From Thysanoteuthis rhombus (lineage: Eukaryota; Mollusca; Cephalopoda; Oegopsida; Thysanoteuthidae), in contig OY735231.1 in assembly GCA_963457665.1 (NCBI GenBank), forward strand, positions 36,703,837-36,767,836: 64,000 nt of DNA, in the 5' to 3' direction. Each line of letters starts with the position of its first letter. Position 1 is the stretch's first letter. The notes under the pieces are model-generated. The model was not told the origin of the DNA and ran no database searches. It saw only the letters and a program-made list of their open reading frames with translations. Positions 1 to 38,336 of the stretch are shown here, piece by piece. Made by a program: the position numbers and the translations under genes.

Positions 1-3000
1 AACAACTTCAGCTGGTTTACTTTCTTCCACAGCCTCAGCTGGTTTACTTTCTTCAACAACTTCAGCTGGTTTACTTTCTTCTACAGCCTCAGCTGGTTTA
101 CTCTCTTCAACAGTCTCAGCTGGTTTACTTTCTTCAACAGCCTCAGCTGGTTTACTTTCTTCAACAGCCTCAGCCGGTTTACTTTCTTCCACAGCCTCAG
201 CTGGTTTAATTTCTTCAACAACTTCAGCTGGTTCACTTTCTTCTACAGCCTCAGCTGGTGTACTTTCTTCAACAGCCTCAGCTGGTGCACTTTCTTCAAC
301 AGCCTCAGCTGGCTTACTTTCTTCAACAGCTTCAGCTGGTTTACTTTCTTCCACAGCCTCAGCTGCTTTACTTTCTTCTACAGCCTCAGCTGGTTTACTT
401 TCTTCCACAGCTTCAGCTGGTTTACTTTCTTCCACTGCCTCAGCTGGTTCATTTTCTCCAACAGCCTCAGATGGTTTACTTTCTTCCACAGTCTCAGCTG
501 GTTTACTTTTTTCCACAGCCTCAGCTAGTTTACTTTCTTCCACAGCCTCAGCTGGTTTACTTTCTTCTACAGCCTCAGCTGGTTTACTTCCTTCTACAGC
601 TGCAGCTGGTTTACTTTCTTCCACAGCTTCAGCTGGTTTACTTTCTTCCACAGCCTCAGCTGCATTACTTTCTTCCACGGCCTCAGCTGGTTTACTTTCT
701 TTAACAGCCTCAGCTGGTTTACTTTCTTCTACAGCCTCAGCTGGTTTACTTTCTTCCACAGCCTCAGCTGGTTTACTTTCTCCTACAACTTCAGGTGGTT
801 TACTTTCTTCTACAGCTTCAGCTGGTTTACTTTCTTCTACGGCCTCAGCTGGTGTACTTTCTTCTACAGCCTCAGCTGGTTTACTTTCTCCAACAGCCTC
901 AGCTGGTTTACTTTCTTCTACAGCCTCAGGTGGTGTACTTTCCTCCACAGCCTCAGCTGGTTTACTTTCTCCTACAACTTCAGCTGGTTTACTTTCTTCC
1001 ACAGCCTCAGCTGGTTTACTTTCTTCAACAGCCTCAGCTGGTTTACTTTCTTCAACAGCCTCAGCTGGTTTACTTTCTTCAACAGCCTCAGCTGGTTTAC
1101 TTTCTTCCACAGCCTCAGCTGGTGTACTTTCTTCTGCAGCCTCAGCTGGTTTACTTTCTTCTACAGCCTCAGCTGGTTTACTTTCTTCTACAGCTTCAGC
1201 TGGTTTACTTTCTTCCACAGCCTCAGCTGGTTTACTTTCTTCTACAGCCTCAGCTGGTTTACTTTCTTCAACAGCCTCAGCTGCTTTACTTTCTTCTACA
1301 GCCTCAGCTGGTTTACTTTCTTCTGCAGCTTCAGCTGGTTTACTTTCTTCCACAGCCTCAGCTGGTTTACTTTCTTCTACAGCCTCAGCTGGTTTACTTT
1401 CTTCAACAGCCTCAGCTGCTTTACTTTCTTCTACAGCCTCAGCTGGTTTACTTTCTTCTACAGCTTCAGCTGGTTTACTTTCTTCCACAGCCTCAGCTGG
1501 TTTACTTTCTTCTACAGCCTCAGCTGGTTTACTTTCTTCAACAGCCTCAGCTGGTTTACTTTCTTCTACAGCCTCAGCTGGTTTACTTTCTTCCACAGCC
1601 TCAGCTGGTGTACTTTCTTCTGCAGCCTCAGCTGGTTTACTTTCTTCTACAGCCTCAGCTGGTTGACTTTCTTCTACAGCTTCAGCTGGTTTACTTTCTT
1701 CCAAAGCCTCAGCTGGTTTACTTTCTTCTACAGCCTCAGCTGGTTTACTTTCTTCTACAGCTTCAGCTGGTTTACTTTCTTCTACAGCCTCAGCTGGTTT
1801 ACTTTCTTCTACAGCCTCAGCTGGTTTACTTTCTTCAACAGCCTCAGCTGGTTTACTTTCTTCTACAGCCTCAGCTGGTTTACTTTCTTCTGCAGCCTCA
1901 GCTGGTTTACTTTCTTCTACAGCCTCAGCTGGTTTACTTTCTTCTACAGCTTCAGCTGGTTTACTTTCTTCCACAGCCTCAGCTGGTTTACTTTCTTCTA
2001 CAGCCTCAGCTGCTTTACTTTCTTCTACAGCCTCAGCTGGTTTACTTTCTTCCAAAGCCTCAGCTGGTTTACTTTCTTCTACAGCCTCAGCTGGTTTACT
2101 TTCTTCTACAGCCTCAGCTGGTTTACTCTCTTCAACAGCCTCAGCTGGTTTACTTTCTTCCACAGCCTCAGCTGGTTTATTTTCTTCCACAGCCTCAGCT
2201 GGTTTACTTTCTTCAACAGCCTCAGCTGGTTTACTTTCTTCAACAGCCTCAGCTGGTTTACTTTCTTCTACAGCCTCAGCTGGTTTACTTTCTTCTACAG
2301 CCTCAGCTGGTTTACTGTCTTCCACAGCTTCCGCTGGTTTACTTTCCTCTACAGCTTCAGCTGGTTTACTTTCTTCAACAGCCTCAGCTGGTTTACTTTC
2401 TTCAACAGCCTCAGCTGGTTTACTTTCTTCAACAGCCTCAGCTGGTGTACTTTCTTCTACAGCCTCTGCTGGTTTACTTTGTTCTCCAGTCTCAGTTGGT
2501 TTACTTTCTTCTACTGTCTCAGCTGGTTTACTTTCTTCTACAGTCTCAGCTGGTTTACTTTCTTCTACAGCCTCAGCTGGTTTACTTTCTTCTACAGCGT
2601 CAGCTGGTTTATTTTCTTCTACAGCGTCTGCTGGTTTACTTTCTTCCACAGCATCAGCTGGTTTACTTTCTTCTACAGTCTCAGCTGGTTTACTTTCTTC
2701 CACAGCCTCAGCTGGTTTACTTTCTTCAACAGCCTCAGCTGGTTTACTTTCTTCTACAGCCTCAGCTGGTTTACTTTTTTCTACAGCCTCAGCTGGTTTA
2801 CTTTCTTCTACAGCCTCAGCTGGTTTATTTTCTTCAACAGCCTCAGCTGGTTTACTTTCTTCTACAGCCTCAGCTGGTTTACTTTCTTCTACATTCGCAG
2901 CCTGTTTACTTCCTTCCACAGCCTCAGCTGGTTTACTTTCTTCAACAGCCTCAGCTGGTGCACTTTCTTCAACAGCCTCAGCTGGTGCACTTTCTTCAAC

Positions 3001-4941
3001 AGCTTCAGCTGGTTCACTTTCTTCAACAGCCTCAGCTTGTTCACTTTCTTCCACAGCCTCAGCTGGTTTACTTTCTCCTACAGCATCAGCTGCTTTACTC
3101 TCTTCCACAGCTCTTGCTGGTTTACTTTCCTCTACAGCTTCAGCTGGTGAACTTTCTTCAACAGCCTTAGCTGGTTTACTTTCTTCCACAGCTTCAGCTG
3201 GTTTACTTTCTTCTACAGCCTCAGCTGGTTTACTTTCTTCAACAGCCTCAGCTGGTTTACTCTCTTCCACAGCCTCAGCTGGTTTACTTTCTTCTACAGC
3301 CCCAGCTGGTTTACTTTCTTCTACAGCCTCAGCTGGTTTACTTTCTTCAACAGGTTCAGCTGGTTTACTCTCTTCAATAGCCTCAGCTGGTTTACTTTCT
3401 TCTACAGCCTCAGCTTGTTTACTTTCTTCAACAGCTTCCGCTGGTTTACTTTCCTCTACAGCCTCAGCTGGTTTACTTTCTTCCACAGCCTCAGCTGGTT
3501 TACTTTCTTCGAAAGCCTCAGCTGGTTTACTCTCTTCCACAGCTTCCGCTGGTTTACTTTCCTCTACAGCTTCAGCTGGTTTACTTTCCTCTACAGCTTC
3601 AGCTGGTTTACTCCCTTCAACAGCCTCAGCTGGTTTACTTTCTTCTACAGCCTCAGCTGGTTTACTTTCTTCTACAGTCCCAGCTGGTTTACTTTGTTCA
3701 ACAGCCTCAGCTGGTTTACTTTCTTCAACAGCTTCAGCTGGTTTACTTTCTTCAACAGCTTCAGCTGGTTTACTTTCTTCCACAGCCTCAGCTGGTTTAC
3801 TTTCTTCTACAGCCTCAGCCGGTTCACTCTCTTCCACAGCCTCTGCTGGTTTACTTTCCTCTACAGCTTCAGCTGGTTTACTTTCTTCAACAGCCTCAGC
3901 TGGTTTACTTTCTTCAACAGCCTCAGCATGTTTATTTTCTTCTACAGCCTCAGCTGGTTTACTTTCTTCAACAGGTTCAGCTGGTTTACTTTCTTCTACA
4001 GTCTCAGCTGGTTTACTTTCTTCAACAGTCTCAGCTGGTTTACTTTCGTCTACAGCCTCAGCTGGTTTACTTTCTTCTACAGCCTCAGCTGGTTTACTTT
4101 CTTCTACAGCCTCAGCTGGTTTACTTTCTTCAACAGCCTCAACTGGTTTACTTTCTTCCACAGCCTCAGCTGGTTTACTTTCTTCTACAGCTTCAGCTGG
4201 TTTACTTTCTCCTACAGTTCCAGCTGGTTTACTTTCTTCAACAGCCTCAGCTGGTTTACTTTCTTCAACAGACTCAGCCGGTTTACTTTCTTCTACAGCC
4301 TCAGCTGGTTTACTTTCTTCCACTGCATCAGCTGGTTCATTTTCTCCTACAGCTTCAGCTGGTTTACTTTCTTCCACAGCCTCAGCTGGTGTACTTTCTT
4401 CTACAGCTTCAGCTGGTTTACTTTCTTCCACAGCCTCAGCTGGTTTACTTTCTTCTACAGCCTCAGCTGGTTTACTTTCTCCAACAGCCTCAGCTGGTTT
4501 ACTTTCTTCTACAGCCTCAGCTGGTTTACTTTCTTCAACAGGTTCAGCTGGTGTACTTTCTTCTACAGTCTCAGCTGGTTTACTTTCTTCCACAGCCTCA
4601 GCTGGTTTACTTTCTTCTACAGCCTCAGCTGGTTTACTTTCTTCTACAGTCTCAGCTGGTTTACTTTCTTCCACAGCCTCAGCTGGTGTACTTTCTTCTA
4701 CAGCCTCAGCTGGTTTACTTTCTTCTACAGTCTCAGCTGGTTTACTTTCTTCTACAGCCTCAGCTGGTTTACTTTCTTCTACAGCGTCAGCTGGTTTACT
4801 TTCTTCAACAGCCTCAGCTGGTTTACTTTCGTCAACAGCCTCAGCTGGTTTACTTTCTTCCACAGCCTTAGCTGGTTTACTTTCTTCCACAGCTTCAGCT
4901 GGTTTACTTTCTTCTACAACTTCACCTGGTTCACTCTCTTC
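1..4941 (-). repeat. 27-bp coding tandem array, about 183 units, encoding VEESKPAEA
   Basis: The plus-strand hexamer agctgg (or a one-base variant) recurs at 10 + 27n wherever I checked: 2467, 3115, 4870, 4897 and 4924 all fall exactly in register. No net insertion or deletion has therefore accumulated over about 4.9 kb. Units differ mainly at the Val codon wobble and at one Glu codon. Replacement variants are scattered: Lys to Thr or Glu, Ala to Ser or Thr, and one strongly diverged unit near 2890-2917. The array is cut by the left edge, so the true copy number is higher. Because the period is a multiple of three, several other frames are also open over long distances without meaning. Confidence 0.97.
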
Positions 4942-7787
4942 CGCAGGGGCAGCCTCTGCAGCTACATTTCTATCTGCAGTCTCAACTGGTTCATTTTTTT
5001 CTGCAGGGACAGCTCCAGTTAGTACACTTCCTTTAGCAACTCCAGCAGCTTCAAGCACTGCTTCTGGTTTACTGTCTTCTGCAGGGATAGCTCCAGCTGG
5101 TACACCATCTTCAGTAACCTCAGAAGGTTTAATTGCTGTTTCAGTCTCAGCTGGTTTACTTTCTCCTACTGATGCAGTTTCAGCTGACAAGTTCTCATCT
5201 GCAGCTTTACTTTCCTTAACAACATCCGCAGATTCGATTGCTATTTTATTCTCAGATGGTTGACTTTCTTCTGCAGGTGCAGTTTCAGCTGGTACATTTT
5301 CATCTGCAACTTTAGAAGGTTCAATAGCTGATTCAGTCTCTGCTGTTTTACTTTCTTCTGTTGGGGCAGCTTTATCTGCAACACTTTCCTCTGCAACATC
5401 ACTTTGTTTACTTTCTTCAGGTGGGATAATCTTTATCTCAATGTCAATTCCTATAGTCTCTTCTCCTACAAGAGTTGGTACACTTTTTTCTGCAGGAGCA
5501 ACTTCAGCTGCTACACTTTCCTCTGCAATTTCACCTGAATCATCAATAGGTTTAGTTTCAGCTCCAGCCTCAGCTGGTTCACTTTCTTCGGAAGGTTCAG
5601 CTTCAGCTGTTACACTTTCCTCAGCAACCTCAACTGGTTTAGTTACTGCTTCAGCCTCAACTGGCTTACTTTCTTCTGAAGGTGCGACTTCAGCTGCTGT
5701 ACTCTCCTCCATAACCTTAGTAGATTCAGCTGTTGCACTTTCCTCTATTACATCAGCTGGTTTGGTTACTGTTTCAGGCTCAGCTGGTTTACATTCTTCT
5801 GCAGGAGCAGCTCCAGTTTGTACATCATCTTCTACAGGAGCAGTTCCAGGAAGTACACTTTCCTCTGCAACCTTAGCCAATTCAATTTCTGCTTCAGCTT
5901 CAGCTATTTTACTTTCTTCTGCAGGAGCTCCAGCTTCTACACTTTCCTCCACTTTATCAGCTAGTTTACTTTCTTCCTCAGCCTTGTCTTGTTTACTTTC
6001 TTCCGCAGGTGCAGCCTTAGCTAGTACACTTATCTCTGCAACATCAGCTGGCTTACTTTCATCCTCAGCTTCAGTAGGTTTACTTTCTTCTACAAGGACA
6101 GATTCAGCCGATACACTTTCCACTGCAACCTCTACTGGTTTAATTTCTGCTTCAACCTCAGCTAGTTGACTTTCTTCTGCAGGGGCAGCTTCAGCTGGTA
6201 CACTTTCTTCTGCAGTCTCACTAGGTTTAGTTTCTGCTTCAGCCTCAGCTGGTTTACATTCATCTACAGAGGCTGATTCAGCTGGTATACTATCTTCTGA
6301 AACCTCAGTTACTTCCCCTGGTTTACTTCCCTCTTCAGGAGAATCCTTAACTGGTGTACTTTCCTCCGCAGGTTTAATTTCCTTTGCAGATGCTGGATTA
6401 CTCTCATCCACAGGTGCAGTTTCACTTTTTTCACTTTTTTCTATAGGTGCAGCCTCAGCTGGTTTATTTTTTTCTGTATGTGAATCAATAGATTCTCCAT
6501 CATTTAAGGCCTCTATACTTGTATCTACCATCTCTAAAGTGTCATCACTTTCAACACTTTGGGAATCATCGAAAGAGTAATACTGTTCCAAATTATCATC
6601 AATGCTCTCTTTATCAGGTGGTACAACCTGGGAGTCTTTCCTCTCCTTATTTTGGAGATTATCTTCTTTTATTTCTTCTACAGCTTCAGTGATTATGCTC
6701 TCAATCTTTTCTTTATTCATTTCAGCTTGTAAACTATTATCTGCAAAATTCTCAGTATGTAATTGGCTTGAAGATGATTCTGCAGGATCCAATGAAGCAA
6801 TTGGATCTTCAAATGTTTCTTCTTCACCATCAGTATCTTTAGCACTACTACTTACTGAAGTATCAACCAAGGCACTAGCTGAAGTTGGATCAACTTCAGG
6901 CTCAGTCTCTGTTTCAGACTTTTCGCACTCTTCTGTTATACCTACTTTTGTACTGGATCCGATTTGATTTCCTTTTGAATCAAGTGCATCAGTATAAAAC
7001 GTAGGCATTCTTTCTTGATTGTCTAAATGTACTTTTCCTTCTTCTGTTTCTTCACTATGTATTTTGCTTTCCTTACAGGCTGTTGACAGTAATAGTGAAG
7101 GGTTTCTTTCAATAACTGAGTTTGCTTCTGATTCAGAATCACTCTCCTCTTCATCTTTAGCAATTTGGCAAGATTCAGCTGAACTCATTTCAACAGCTTC
7201 TTTGGGTAACATAGAATTTTGATTAGCATCTTTTTCCTCAGAACTTTGCTCTGATAAGGCAGTGGAAGAGTTTGAACCACTGTTAATCACTTCTGTACTT
7301 TTTAGATCTTTTGGACAAGGTAGGCACTGTGATTTATTGAAAGACTCGGTATCCTGATCACAACTTTCTGAACTTTGCAATTCAGGTTCATCTGTATTTG
7401 ACCCAATTTTAGCAACAAGAGCTTTAGGAGAACTACTACATGAAGTTATCAAATGAGTATGTATTAAACATTCTGTATGTGGCCCACTAGTATCAGAACC
7501 CATATCTTCTTTGCAAGAACACTTCAACTGTTGCCTATCAGTAGACAAAATACTTAGCGCACCTGAAGAATCAGGTGATATAGGGGAAGCAATATCAGGT
7601 GTAGCAGTATCAAACTCATAGCAAGCATCAGCTGGAGAAATGACATCACCTGTTTGATTAGGAGATAAATCATCTTCTGGTGAACTGGAAGGCAGGCCAT
7701 AAGTTGGAATCCCTTTAGAGTGACTCTCATCATGTTCATATGTTGAAGGAGGAGAAGCTAAAACCACTCCTTCATCTGCATGAGTAT
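1..7787 (-). CDS. Giant acidic 9-residue-repeat protein, large exon (partial, runs off left edge)
   Basis: Read on the minus strand, this frame is open from 7787 to position 1: 2595 codons without a stop, and it continues beyond the window. From its N-terminal end it contains a unique Ser/Asp/Glu-rich part (about 435 residues, beginning DTHADEGVVLASPPSTYEHD), then about 510 residues of imperfect Glu/Ala/Pro/Ser/Lys repeats, then about 183 copies of VEESKPAEA. There is no signal peptide, membrane segment or recognisable folded domain. Each nonamer carries three Glu and one Lys, so the chain is strongly negative and should be disordered, like neurofilament tails, MAP projection domains or the acidic exons of some reticulons. 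Those are analogies, not assignments. The frame is supported because unit-to-unit variation is mostly synonymous in this frame (Val GTT/GTG/GTA, Glu GAG/GAA). The chosen 5' boundary is a CAG acceptor after a short CTCTTT tract, in phase 1 with the exon at 15091-15252. An acceptor at 7776/7775 has the same phase. In-frame ATGs at 7848, 7845 and 7836 allow an alternative unspliced start. Confidence 0.8.
1191..1595 (-). repeat. Higher-order repeat: 135-bp block of five 27-bp units, three tandem copies
   Basis: The same succession of unit variants, including a cttcagctgg unit and a rarer cctcagctgc unit, starts at 1191, 1326 and 1461, exactly 135 bp apart. This shows recent duplication of a five-unit (45-residue) block inside the array, so the array grows by blocks as well as single units. 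The third copy ends in a variant lacking the rarer unit. Confidence 0.85.
4942..6480 (-). repeat. Degenerate Glu/Ala/Pro coding repeat, longer irregular units
   Basis: Part of the large exon. The minus-strand translation alternates blocks such as EESVPAEAAPAEESKPAEAE and AETKPSETAEES, giving irregular units of about 18 to 30 residues built on the same EESKPAEA core. Divergence between units is far higher than in the neighbouring 27-bp array. It is therefore either older or maintained without homogenisation. No stop codon interrupts it in this frame. Confidence 0.85.
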
Positions 7788-10700
7788 CTGAAAGAGTATG
7801 GCATTCATTCTTGCAGCTATCATAGGCAAAGGACATGCAATCCATCATTTGTAAGATTTGAATAAGTATTGCAACAATACTATACTTCGAAAAAAAAAAT
7901 GGATTTTTGATTACTTTAGAAAAATGATGCATAATATGAAATATTGATTAGTATATAAATTTATCATAGTTTCAGCAAACTAAAATGCTTCAAATACTAA
8001 CAACTCAATATCTTAGGATATTAGGATGAATACAGCTGCGATTAGATATTGCTCAGTATTATTATGAAACAGTTTTACCAACAAGCTGTCTAAGATTTAA
8101 CTCGACCACTCGACTCAGTCAAGTCAACTCTCTTTTGGACATGTAAATTTTTCAATGTTGAAAAAATATGACGTTTTATCACATTTTTATATTCATCTAA
8201 TTTTTTTGATATTTAGCAGTGACAAACTGAGCAGAAATAAACAACCCAATAGATTTTACGTCATAAAAATTTCAAAGATGACAGTGTTAATGAATCCCCA
8301 TGCATAACCTATTTTCTTGGCAAAGTTTTTTTACCTTGGAACAGGAAAGATAAAACAATGAAGTCTAAGTCATCATAGATTATCGCACTTTATATGATTC
8401 TTTTCTTTTAAGCATGAGTCAATCCTCCTTGAGTAATCATTTCAGTCAAGACAAATTCTTTCTGGGAGAGTAAACTTTCCCTTTAATTCTTTGAAATCTT
8501 ATAGGTTGCCAGAGAAAAAACTAAAAATATTCCAAAAAATCATGACCTGATGTGATTTTGAACAAGATATTGGCTGAGCCAAGTGAATTACCTCATCAAT
8601 CATGCATATAAATTTGAAGCACATTGTAAATGATGGCATTAAACAATTTGTTTTCCTGGAAAGCAGCAACGCATGTTTATTTTTTCAATGCATGATAGTA
8701 AAAGCTGAATAACATAACAGTATGCATTTTAGTAAAGGTTACAGTTAGTACTGTTATTTGTTAGTAATGGTTATTGTTAGTACTGTTATTCACATTGTTT
8801 TTTTTATAAAACAGAACAAATTATTTTTAATTCTATGGTACAATTAGGAAAAATTCTATCATAAATATTTGACATCAATACAAAAGTTTCATATGAAATT
8901 CTGAAAGGAAAAAGGTTAACTGAGATTCAAGAAACAACAATAAATTAACAGTAATAAATACATAATCCTATTCATGCTAAAAGATAATGAAATTACTTAT
9001 GAAAATTTATAAAAATATGAGAGTTTTAGTTTCATGTGTGAGTATATTTAAATATACATTGTTAAAAAAAAACTTACAAACTCTGTCTATTTAATTTGGT
9101 GGTTAATTTTTCAACGTTGCATACAAACCTCATATTATGTCATCTAAAAACATTCCAAAGTCAGTGGTCTGAGATCTTTCAACCATCATCAGCTATCATC
9201 AAGAAAGTGTGATAGTGGTATTCAAAGAGTGATCAGTACTACTTCTCATTACAATCTTATATTTATATCTGAAATATTGTCTTTTTCCTAATTAGCATAA
9301 TCATGAGTTAATCTTCTCAAATGTGTAACTGAAACTAAAGCAATGTGCTGACTACAACTTTTGGATGTTTCATTAAAAACTTTGATGGCATCAATAATAG
9401 GTTTGTACACAAAGTAGAAAAATTAACCAAAAAATTAAATAATATCTTTCATTAAAAATAACAGGCAAAGAGAATCATATAAATTTTTTTAGTAATCTTT
9501 TCTCATTTTCGTACAAAAAAAATAGATCTTTGGTTCCAATGAATATAGATATTCTCCTAAACATATAGCACTATTGACAACACAATCTGCGATTTTCAAA
9601 TTCAAGGTAGAGTTATACTAGTGTCATGGTAGAGTTATATTCTGTTTGATCATATTTTTTCATTGTGTAATTTTAACCATTAAATTCTACCTTTGCAGTT
9701 TGCTATTCATGGAATGCTTTTTTTAAGTTACTTTGAGTGTTACAGTGAAGTCATTTGGTGGTGTATGGGCATTAGAGAATTTTTCTTTTTATTTGAAGGA
9801 GTTTTTCAATTATCTACTGTATTCAATTAAAAAACTAATTAATTTAAATAATTGATAATCAATCAACAAATTAATCATTAAGTACATTTAATACACCAGT
9901 ACCTTGACTAAAGAGTATATTGTTAAGTGTGGGATTCCTTGACTCTATTATAAGCGCTTCTATCATTTGCAATCTATTAATGTAGTTTATTCTTTATAGT
10001 ATTCACACTTTATCTATTTTGCAAATGGGAGTATCATTATTTAGTTGCTTTCTGTATTTTAGATATGTTTTCATTGCATTTTGATCTGAGAGTTGGCTGG
10101 TTAGATGCCGTGATAATGTTGTTCTTGCATGTCCTATATATGAGCTAGGTGGATCTTCTTCATGTTAGGATACAATCCTTCAAAAGGAAAGTGAATTCAT
10201 ACATGATATTAGTGTAGCTAATTGGGGACTTCTCACAACAGAGGTATTTGGTGAAAATCAAGTTTGATGTCTTAAATCATTTATAATAAATCATTAATTT
10301 TATGTTTGTCTTTTTCAACTGGAGAAGTTCATTGTTATATGATATTTCAGATTACTGATTCATCTTGTTTGTTACTGTGTATTTGGTTACAATGAAATTT
10401 ATTGTATTTTTATCGCATTTGTTATCAATAAGGTTTATAGTTTTGCTATTGAACTTGGTTAGCGTAGGATAACCATGTTTACTAGTACTTGTGTAATATT
10501 GTCAAGTATTTTATAAAACAAATCACAGAAAGAGGATATTAAAAATTGCTCTTCGAATTTACTTCTTGATGACTGCTAACCTACAAGCTCTCAAATTGAA
10601 ATGCAATAAAAACACATTAAACAATAATACACCCATTCATAAAATATTTGTAATTAATACCCGAATACTATAAAAAAATGAACTGCCTTAAAAGAAGATC

Positions 10701-37988: not shown

Positions 37989-38336
37989 TGCTCAAATAGT
38001 GTAATGATTAGCATGTCTGCCTCATATGCAGACGGTCCGGGGTTTGATGCCCAGTTGGAGCAAAGATTATAGAAAACTCTTCATTAAGACAAATTCCTAT
38101 GAGCACTCAGCAGCTAATTGAGTACACTCTAAGCTGTGTGATTAGGGTAGAGGTATCCCTTCAGTGAACTTGAATCTTACCAAGGGAGTAGTCATAAAAA
38201 CTTGTAGGAATAAAATCTTAGTCTACACCAGATTTGAGATCGGCATCCATACTCTACTGAGAGTTGTTACTGGCCTCCATACTCTAATAGAATTGTCTCT
38301 TCAAGGACGGGGCGCCTTACCTTATCTTTTTTTTTC
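37989..38336 (+). mobile_element. tRNA-derived SINE, near full length, T-rich tail
   Basis: The first 74 bases (37989-38062) fold as a tRNA. The ends tgctcaa and ttggagca pair except at one position. The anticodon stem tctgc/gcaga encloses a loop ctcatat with CAT in the anticodon position. The T arm has loop tttgatg. An A-box-like tagtgtaatgatta and a B-box-like ggtttgatgcc are present. A body of about 250 bases follows, ending cttaccttatc and a run of T (to 38335). The body and tail show it is a SINE rather than a tRNA gene. Confidence 0.8.

Follow-up and report, generated by a model that had tools for sequence, protein, structure and literature searches.

The question raised by this locus is what a stop-free acidic frame of several thousand codons encodes in the squid Thysanoteuthis rhombus, and whether it is part of a gene of a known kind. 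The window, meaning the whole 64,000-nucleotide stretch of DNA that was examined first, covers positions 36703837-36767836 of contig OY735231.1 (C36) in an assembly of 2.73 Gb and 514 contigs, and it was analysed together with 100 kb on either side (264 kb in all). Coordinates are those of the window (C36 coordinate = 36703836 + window coordinate), and those below 1 lie to its left on OY735231.1. The first-pass annotation, made from the letters of the window alone, described an uninterrupted giant acidic protein on the minus strand that ran past the window's edge. This frame is open from 7932 to 1 and, when extended to the left, on to a TGA at -11627, giving 6,519 codons from the ATG at 7932; no stop or frame break occurs in the chain in this assembly. 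The C-terminus, which the annotation had expected to be found by extension to the left, is a basic Ser/Lys/Pro-rich tail that precedes the TGA. The single open frame encodes an acidic chain of ~6,490 residues (679 kDa and pI 4.16, counted from residue 33). Its acidic part comprises 6,245 residues with a net charge of about -1,300, and the repeats are flanked by unique open sequence (~450 residues before and ~420 after). The reading of this chain as an extended, repulsive, acidic spacer, which is drawn from sequence features, agrees with what was found.

Table 1 Features of the locus, in window coordinates (negative values lie to the left of the window)
Feature	Coordinates	Strand	Remarks
Giant open frame, in-window part	1..7932	-	2,644 of 6,519 codons
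Candidate start codons	7848, 7845, 7836	-	
N-terminal acidic Ser/Pro-containing region, residues 33-482	6487..7836	-	Conserved with Octopus bimaculoides P0002; 8 S/T-P sites
Degenerate acidic repeats ahead of the array, residues 483-996	4945..6486	-	TRF, composition
Nonamer array, in-window part (~183 units)	1..4944	-	TRF; array continues to -8960
Degenerate repeats and acidic linker, residues 5632-6277	-8961..-10898	-	
Basic Ser/Lys/Pro tail, 242 residues	-10899..-11624	-	pI ~11
Repeat exon 1	-19752..-19938	-	No Met; starts mid-protein
Repeat exon 2	-21579..-21694	-	Phase-matching splice sites
14 repeat exons	-27231 to -57944	-	12 are 90 nt, phase 0-0
96-nt repeat exon	-71589..-71684	-	
Terminal repeat exon	from -72006	-	3-4 degenerate repeats, stop at -72594..-72596

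Most of the acidic part (4,635 of 6,245 residues) consists of 515 similar nonamers. They follow one another from residue 997 to residue 5631 in one register, without a shift or a stop, when the run is followed for as long as each unit differs from VEESKPAEA at five or fewer of its nine places. Exact copies of VEESKPAEA make up 263 of the 515 units, and 100 different peptides are present altogether. For the part inside the window, the ~183 units counted earlier agree with TRF, which gives 182.7 copies of a 27-bp unit at 8-4941, and the charge of about -2 assigned to each nonamer is borne out by the measured -0.222 per residue of the array. Since the unit is stop-free in several frames, the openness of the array alone is weak evidence for a gene; stops within the array number 0 in the reported frame and 3, 19, 30, 202, and 1,100 in the other five, and antisense frames inside it are open for up to 2,456 codons. 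None of the 515 units carries a stop variant reachable in one step (four single-base changes are possible), where ~10 such copies would be expected at the rate of the other non-synonymous transversions if the copies are treated as independent, which they are not. The ratio of non-synonymous to synonymous changes in the array is ~0.27 for transitions and ~0.11 for transversions over all sites, and ~1.1 and ~0.4, respectively, without the two most variable third bases. Because the ratios hinge on these two very variable positions, selection on residue identity in the array is not clear. On the plus strand, the open reading frames at 1-6169 (up to 2,456 codons when extended to the left) mostly represent the stop-poor 27-bp unit read in antisense, and automatic annotation could mistake them for genes. 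The array also contains identical blocks of 27-mers, one of 13 units (477-489 = 498-510, 21 units apart) and one of 9 units (147-155 = 278-286, 131 units apart), which likely reflect recent segmental duplication inside it.

The strongest support for the frame being more than a product of chance is its homology to an octopus protein. The N-terminal 430 residues, which the first-pass annotation had singled out for homologue searches, match an Octopus bimaculoides sequence deposited as 'titin, partial' (P0002; 2,625 aa) at E 3.3e-47, with 39% identity and 564 aligned positions. It is likely that the frame has been kept by selection. The alignment extends upstream through CKNxCHxLSDTH to a methionine opposite residue 33. 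Thus, although the open frame stands over the span that had been given for the exon in the window, 7787 is probably not the exon start, because the octopus match runs upstream of it; judged from the alignment, a boundary or start codon probably lies near 7809-7848. P0002 shares the homologous N-terminal 540 residues, is acidic, and has an array further on. However, this array (Pro/Glu/Lys/Ala/Val in composition) is built from units of 8 and 14 residues rather than the 9 found here, so the squid and octopus arrays are not one array inherited unchanged. The octopus sequence ends inside its array and is therefore silent on any link between the giant exon and sequences downstream. P0002 has no match in Pfam, which leaves the name titin without Pfam support. 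Searches for longer relatives, and those made with a joined query, returned nothing. Three RLSLVEF motifs, each inside a longer similar segment, are present at residues 700, 1002, and 2184 of P0002, and the pattern is absent from the squid frame.

The earlier statement that no described family has this unit holds, as far as Pfam is concerned, for the chain itself, which has one match, below the cut-off. The tau/MAP repeat exons 8 kb beyond the frame end lie outside the DNA on which that statement was based. The first clue was a match to PF00418 (E 2.5e-8) on raw DNA, in one frame downstream of the giant frame. Downstream, Pfam covered one frame of one locus and the tail, and a sequence pattern served to find the remaining repeat exons. 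Eighteen repeat exons form a run on the strand of the giant frame; it begins 8.1 kb beyond the frame end, at -19752, and continues to about -72600. A stricter pattern applied to the 264 kb gave 20 matches, every one of them within the run, while the opposite strand gave none. The 18 exons match in phase and join into 754 codons that end at a stop. The joined product matches PF00418 at E 2.8e-229 in 18 stretches, and about 21 repeats, three of them weak, can be counted by eye. Among solved chains, tau is the best match to a 155-residue piece of the product (E 1.1e-47). Further, the terminal exon holds the last repeats and then a short tail and a stop, as in tau, MAP2, and MAP4. Judged by these exons, the locus likely belongs to the tau/MAP2/MAP4 family, and the acidic spacer would have an anchor in them.

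Several of the 90-nt exons have common intron flanks, as expected of tandem exon duplication. Exons of 90 nt in phase 0 can be included or skipped without a change of frame and, with 12 of them in the run, binding strength would likely be tunable by splicing. The acceptor of the exon at -33700 is poor, and the start of this exon was placed by hand (moved from -33707). The joined run leaves out a decayed 90-nt copy at about -30360 to -30480, which carries an in-frame TAA and lies ~300 bp from an intact copy. There is also a gap of 200 Ns at -56734..-56535 inside the run, where one or more exons may be missing from the assembly.

How the giant frame ends bears directly on its relation to these exons. 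The basic tail contains eight S/T-P sites, six of which are S/T-P-x-K/R, together with lysine clusters and one RGRP motif. Two AATAAA hexamers lie within 800 nt after the TGA, although we estimate that, with the base composition found here, chance would often produce them. The first repeat exon needs a donor in phase 0, and no strong one was found at the end of the giant frame. Candidate phase-0 donors are present at -10833 (score 0.9) and -11475 (1.4), along with one of the GC type at -10884. The donors that score best, at -9568 and -10546, are both in phase 1, and their use would remove the basic tail. A weak donor at -11623 (AAAAG/GTTGAA), a few bases before the TGA, is also in phase 1 and fits only the second repeat exon (-21579). 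On the same scale the repeat-exon donors range between 1.3 and 8.3, the weakest being 1.3 and 1.7; because these donors themselves go down to 1.3, a weak donor is possible for the giant exon as well.

We put the probability at roughly two in three that the giant exon is the projection-domain exon of a tau/MAP2/MAP4-family gene and that the 18 downstream exons are its tubulin-binding repeats. Tau is arranged as an acidic region, a proline-rich region, the repeats, and a tail (PMC4962469). The locus has, on one strand, an acidic region, a basic S/T-P region, repeats, and a tail in that order. In this arrangement the basic end of the giant frame would act as the proline-rich region, and a splice would join the giant exon to the repeats in a predicted product of ~7,240 residues and 762 kDa. 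No other proline-rich region was seen by eye in open stretches of at least 38 codons between the frame and the repeats, the longest of which (155 codons) is TA-simple and the next 84 codons long. The 8 kb between them contain 4 exon candidates in sense, compared with 14 in the antisense control. Repeat exon 1 has no methionine and the gap is no richer in candidates than the control, which makes it likely that the repeat gene has its N-terminal half further upstream, at the giant frame. One 44-nt candidate for a linking exon, at -19010..-19053, has a fitting phase; it is not put forward, because such candidates are no commoner in sense (4) than in antisense (14).

The main rival, given the frame's own TGA and the donor phases in the tail, is that the giant exon is an alternative last exon, so that giant isoforms have no repeats and depend on the basic tail, and the repeats occur in short isoforms from which the giant exon is left out. 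We regard this as rather improbable. The in-frame TGA followed by AATAAA, the lack of a strong in-phase donor in the tail, and the strongly basic character of the tail (pI ~11) are what it would predict, but tau normally has its proline-rich region immediately ahead of the repeats, and no other such region was seen by eye in the open stretches of at least 38 codons between the frame and the repeats. The same TGA would also suit two unrelated neighbours, one encoding a giant acidic protein in a class of its own and the other belonging to the tau family, and so would the octopus relative, which is a database protein with its methionine in this exon and the name titin (although it ends inside the array). 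Two genes are distinctly unlikely, since the repeat gene would then lack both a start and a proline-rich region and the exon candidates between are not above the control. That there is no real gene here, only a satellite array open by chance or an assembly artefact, has next to no credibility: the unit is stop-free in several frames and 27-bp arrays can collapse or expand in assembly, but this would leave the open unique flanks, the octopus homologue, and the 515 units in one register without a stop variant unaccounted for.

Two further readings would give the chain a role away from microtubules or in another family, and the chance of either is very slim. Ki-67 exposes an acidic arm and holds chromatin with a basic tail, and a nuclear brush of this type would be in keeping with the SPxK sites and lysine clusters of the squid tail and with its one RGRP motif, presumably an AT-hook; the tau repeats 8 kb away account better for the basic region. 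Giant ankyrin exons, reported in all major bilaterian groups, resemble the squid exon in length, Ser/Glu-rich bias, and repeats (PMC5135030). However, a ZU5 search gave 5 matches among 13 candidates scored, none of them on C36. The match that looks like ankyrin by eye lies on C18, and a giant ankyrin was rejected on the location of these ZU5 matches. Over the 76 kb upstream on the coding strand (all three minus-strand frames at 7801-64000 and on to 84000), nothing exceeded the Pfam cut-off, including death domains, which protostome giant ankyrins have upstream of the long exon, and the Ig-like I-set domains of titin, although domains split between exons could be missed. Below the cut-off there were two matches in the flank to 84000, one of them transposase-like, and a codon-bias exon finder gave only low-complexity pieces and unsupported candidates upstream.

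Other families with giant proteins were sought by their conserved domains. A squid neurofilament giant was considered and dropped, as the PF00038 rods (8 matches among 38 candidates) map to C19, C15, C34, and C2 and none to C36. MAP1/Futsch (PF25281) gave 1 match among 2 candidates, on C15 and not on C36, and RP1/RP1L1 (doublecortin, PF03607) gave 9 matches among 12 candidates on C8, C30, C17, C47, and C2, with none on C36.

With the giant exon read as a projection-domain exon, the likely function, by analogy with tau and MAP2, would be that of a very long microtubule spacer with a high binding valence, tunable through its phase-0 repeat exons. Binding to the acidic microtubule wall, through the repeats and the basic tail, would hold the protein there, while the acidic chain of 6,245 residues would stick out and keep neighbouring microtubules apart. 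How far the arm reaches would be set by the length of the array. For a neutral self-avoiding chain with as many residues as the arm, the radius of gyration would be ~37 nm and the end-to-end distance ~90 nm, values that come from the chain-size scaling formula and are not a fit; charge repulsion would extend the arm beyond this neutral size. In tau, a longer anionic block goes with a wider wall-to-wall distance between microtubules and its deletion collapses bundles, but opposing projection domains also attract, and removal of the full N-terminal tail still left wide bundles (PMC4962469). A long exon 9 marks high-molecular-weight MAP2 (PMC6468450).

A fuller version of this reading holds that the locus encodes a single protein of ~760 kDa, the largest known member of the tau family, in which ~20 repeats clamp a polyanionic arm of 515 units. 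The arm would serve as a length-coded ruler that spaces microtubules in cephalopod axons far more widely than tau or MAP2 can, and the octopod arm would have been re-invented from another unit. We lean towards it at slightly better than even odds. To our knowledge, the natural range of lengths of tau acidic blocks is narrow, and the giant exon is larger than any projection exon of tau, MAP2, or MAP4 that we know of. Cephalopods are known for very large axons. If the reading is correct, the squid locus would be a natural extreme in which to test how axonal architecture is set by the length of the arm and the valence of binding, it would indicate that different repeat units can serve to rebuild arms alike in composition, and the misleading database name titin would be corrected.

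The locus shares with the tau/MAP2/MAP4 genes (PF00418) the C-terminal K-[IV]-G-S...N..H.PGGG repeats, ahead of which the genome has a basic S/T-P stretch and an acidic stretch. It differs in having 18 Pfam stretches (~21 repeats by eye) and in the length of its acidic part. Proteins of this family have 3 to 5 repeats in the taxa listed in one passage of a survey, and 7-10 in some molluscs, with ten in the Pacific oyster; the same survey of reference proteomes recorded three fragments of one tau-family gene in O. bimaculoides (PMC8985376). Some fish tau has up to 7 repeats, and duplicated repeat exons with phase-0 introns have been described there as well (PMC4815063). In high-molecular-weight MAP2, too, a single long exon lengthens the projection domain, but no sequence relation to it was seen, and the arm here is repetitive and several times longer. 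The giant ankyrins AnkG-480, Drosophila Ank2-XL, and C. elegans UNC-44 are comparable in having one very long Ser/Glu/Lys/Pro-rich exon, sometimes repetitive, for which a spacer role has been proposed, but that exon is joined to ankyrin repeats, ZU5, and UPA (PMC5135030), while the ankyrin-like ZU5 exon in this assembly is on another contig. No giant tau-family protein of a cephalopod was among the literature matches listed for tau in molluscs and cephalopods, giant repeat proteins, futsch, and squid axoplasm. What would be new, if the reading is true, is the combination, in one tau-family gene, of an acidic arm exceeding 6,000 residues and several times the usual number of repeats.

Two minor features lie outside the exons described here. 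A tRNA-Met-like gene is present at 37990-38062 (Rfam RF00005, 45.7 bits; anticodon CAT by ARAGORN), where the DNA would be either intergenic or part of an upstream intron. On the plus strand, outside the window at 103733-104566, a frame of 278 codons resembles a fragment of a reverse transcriptase by eye.
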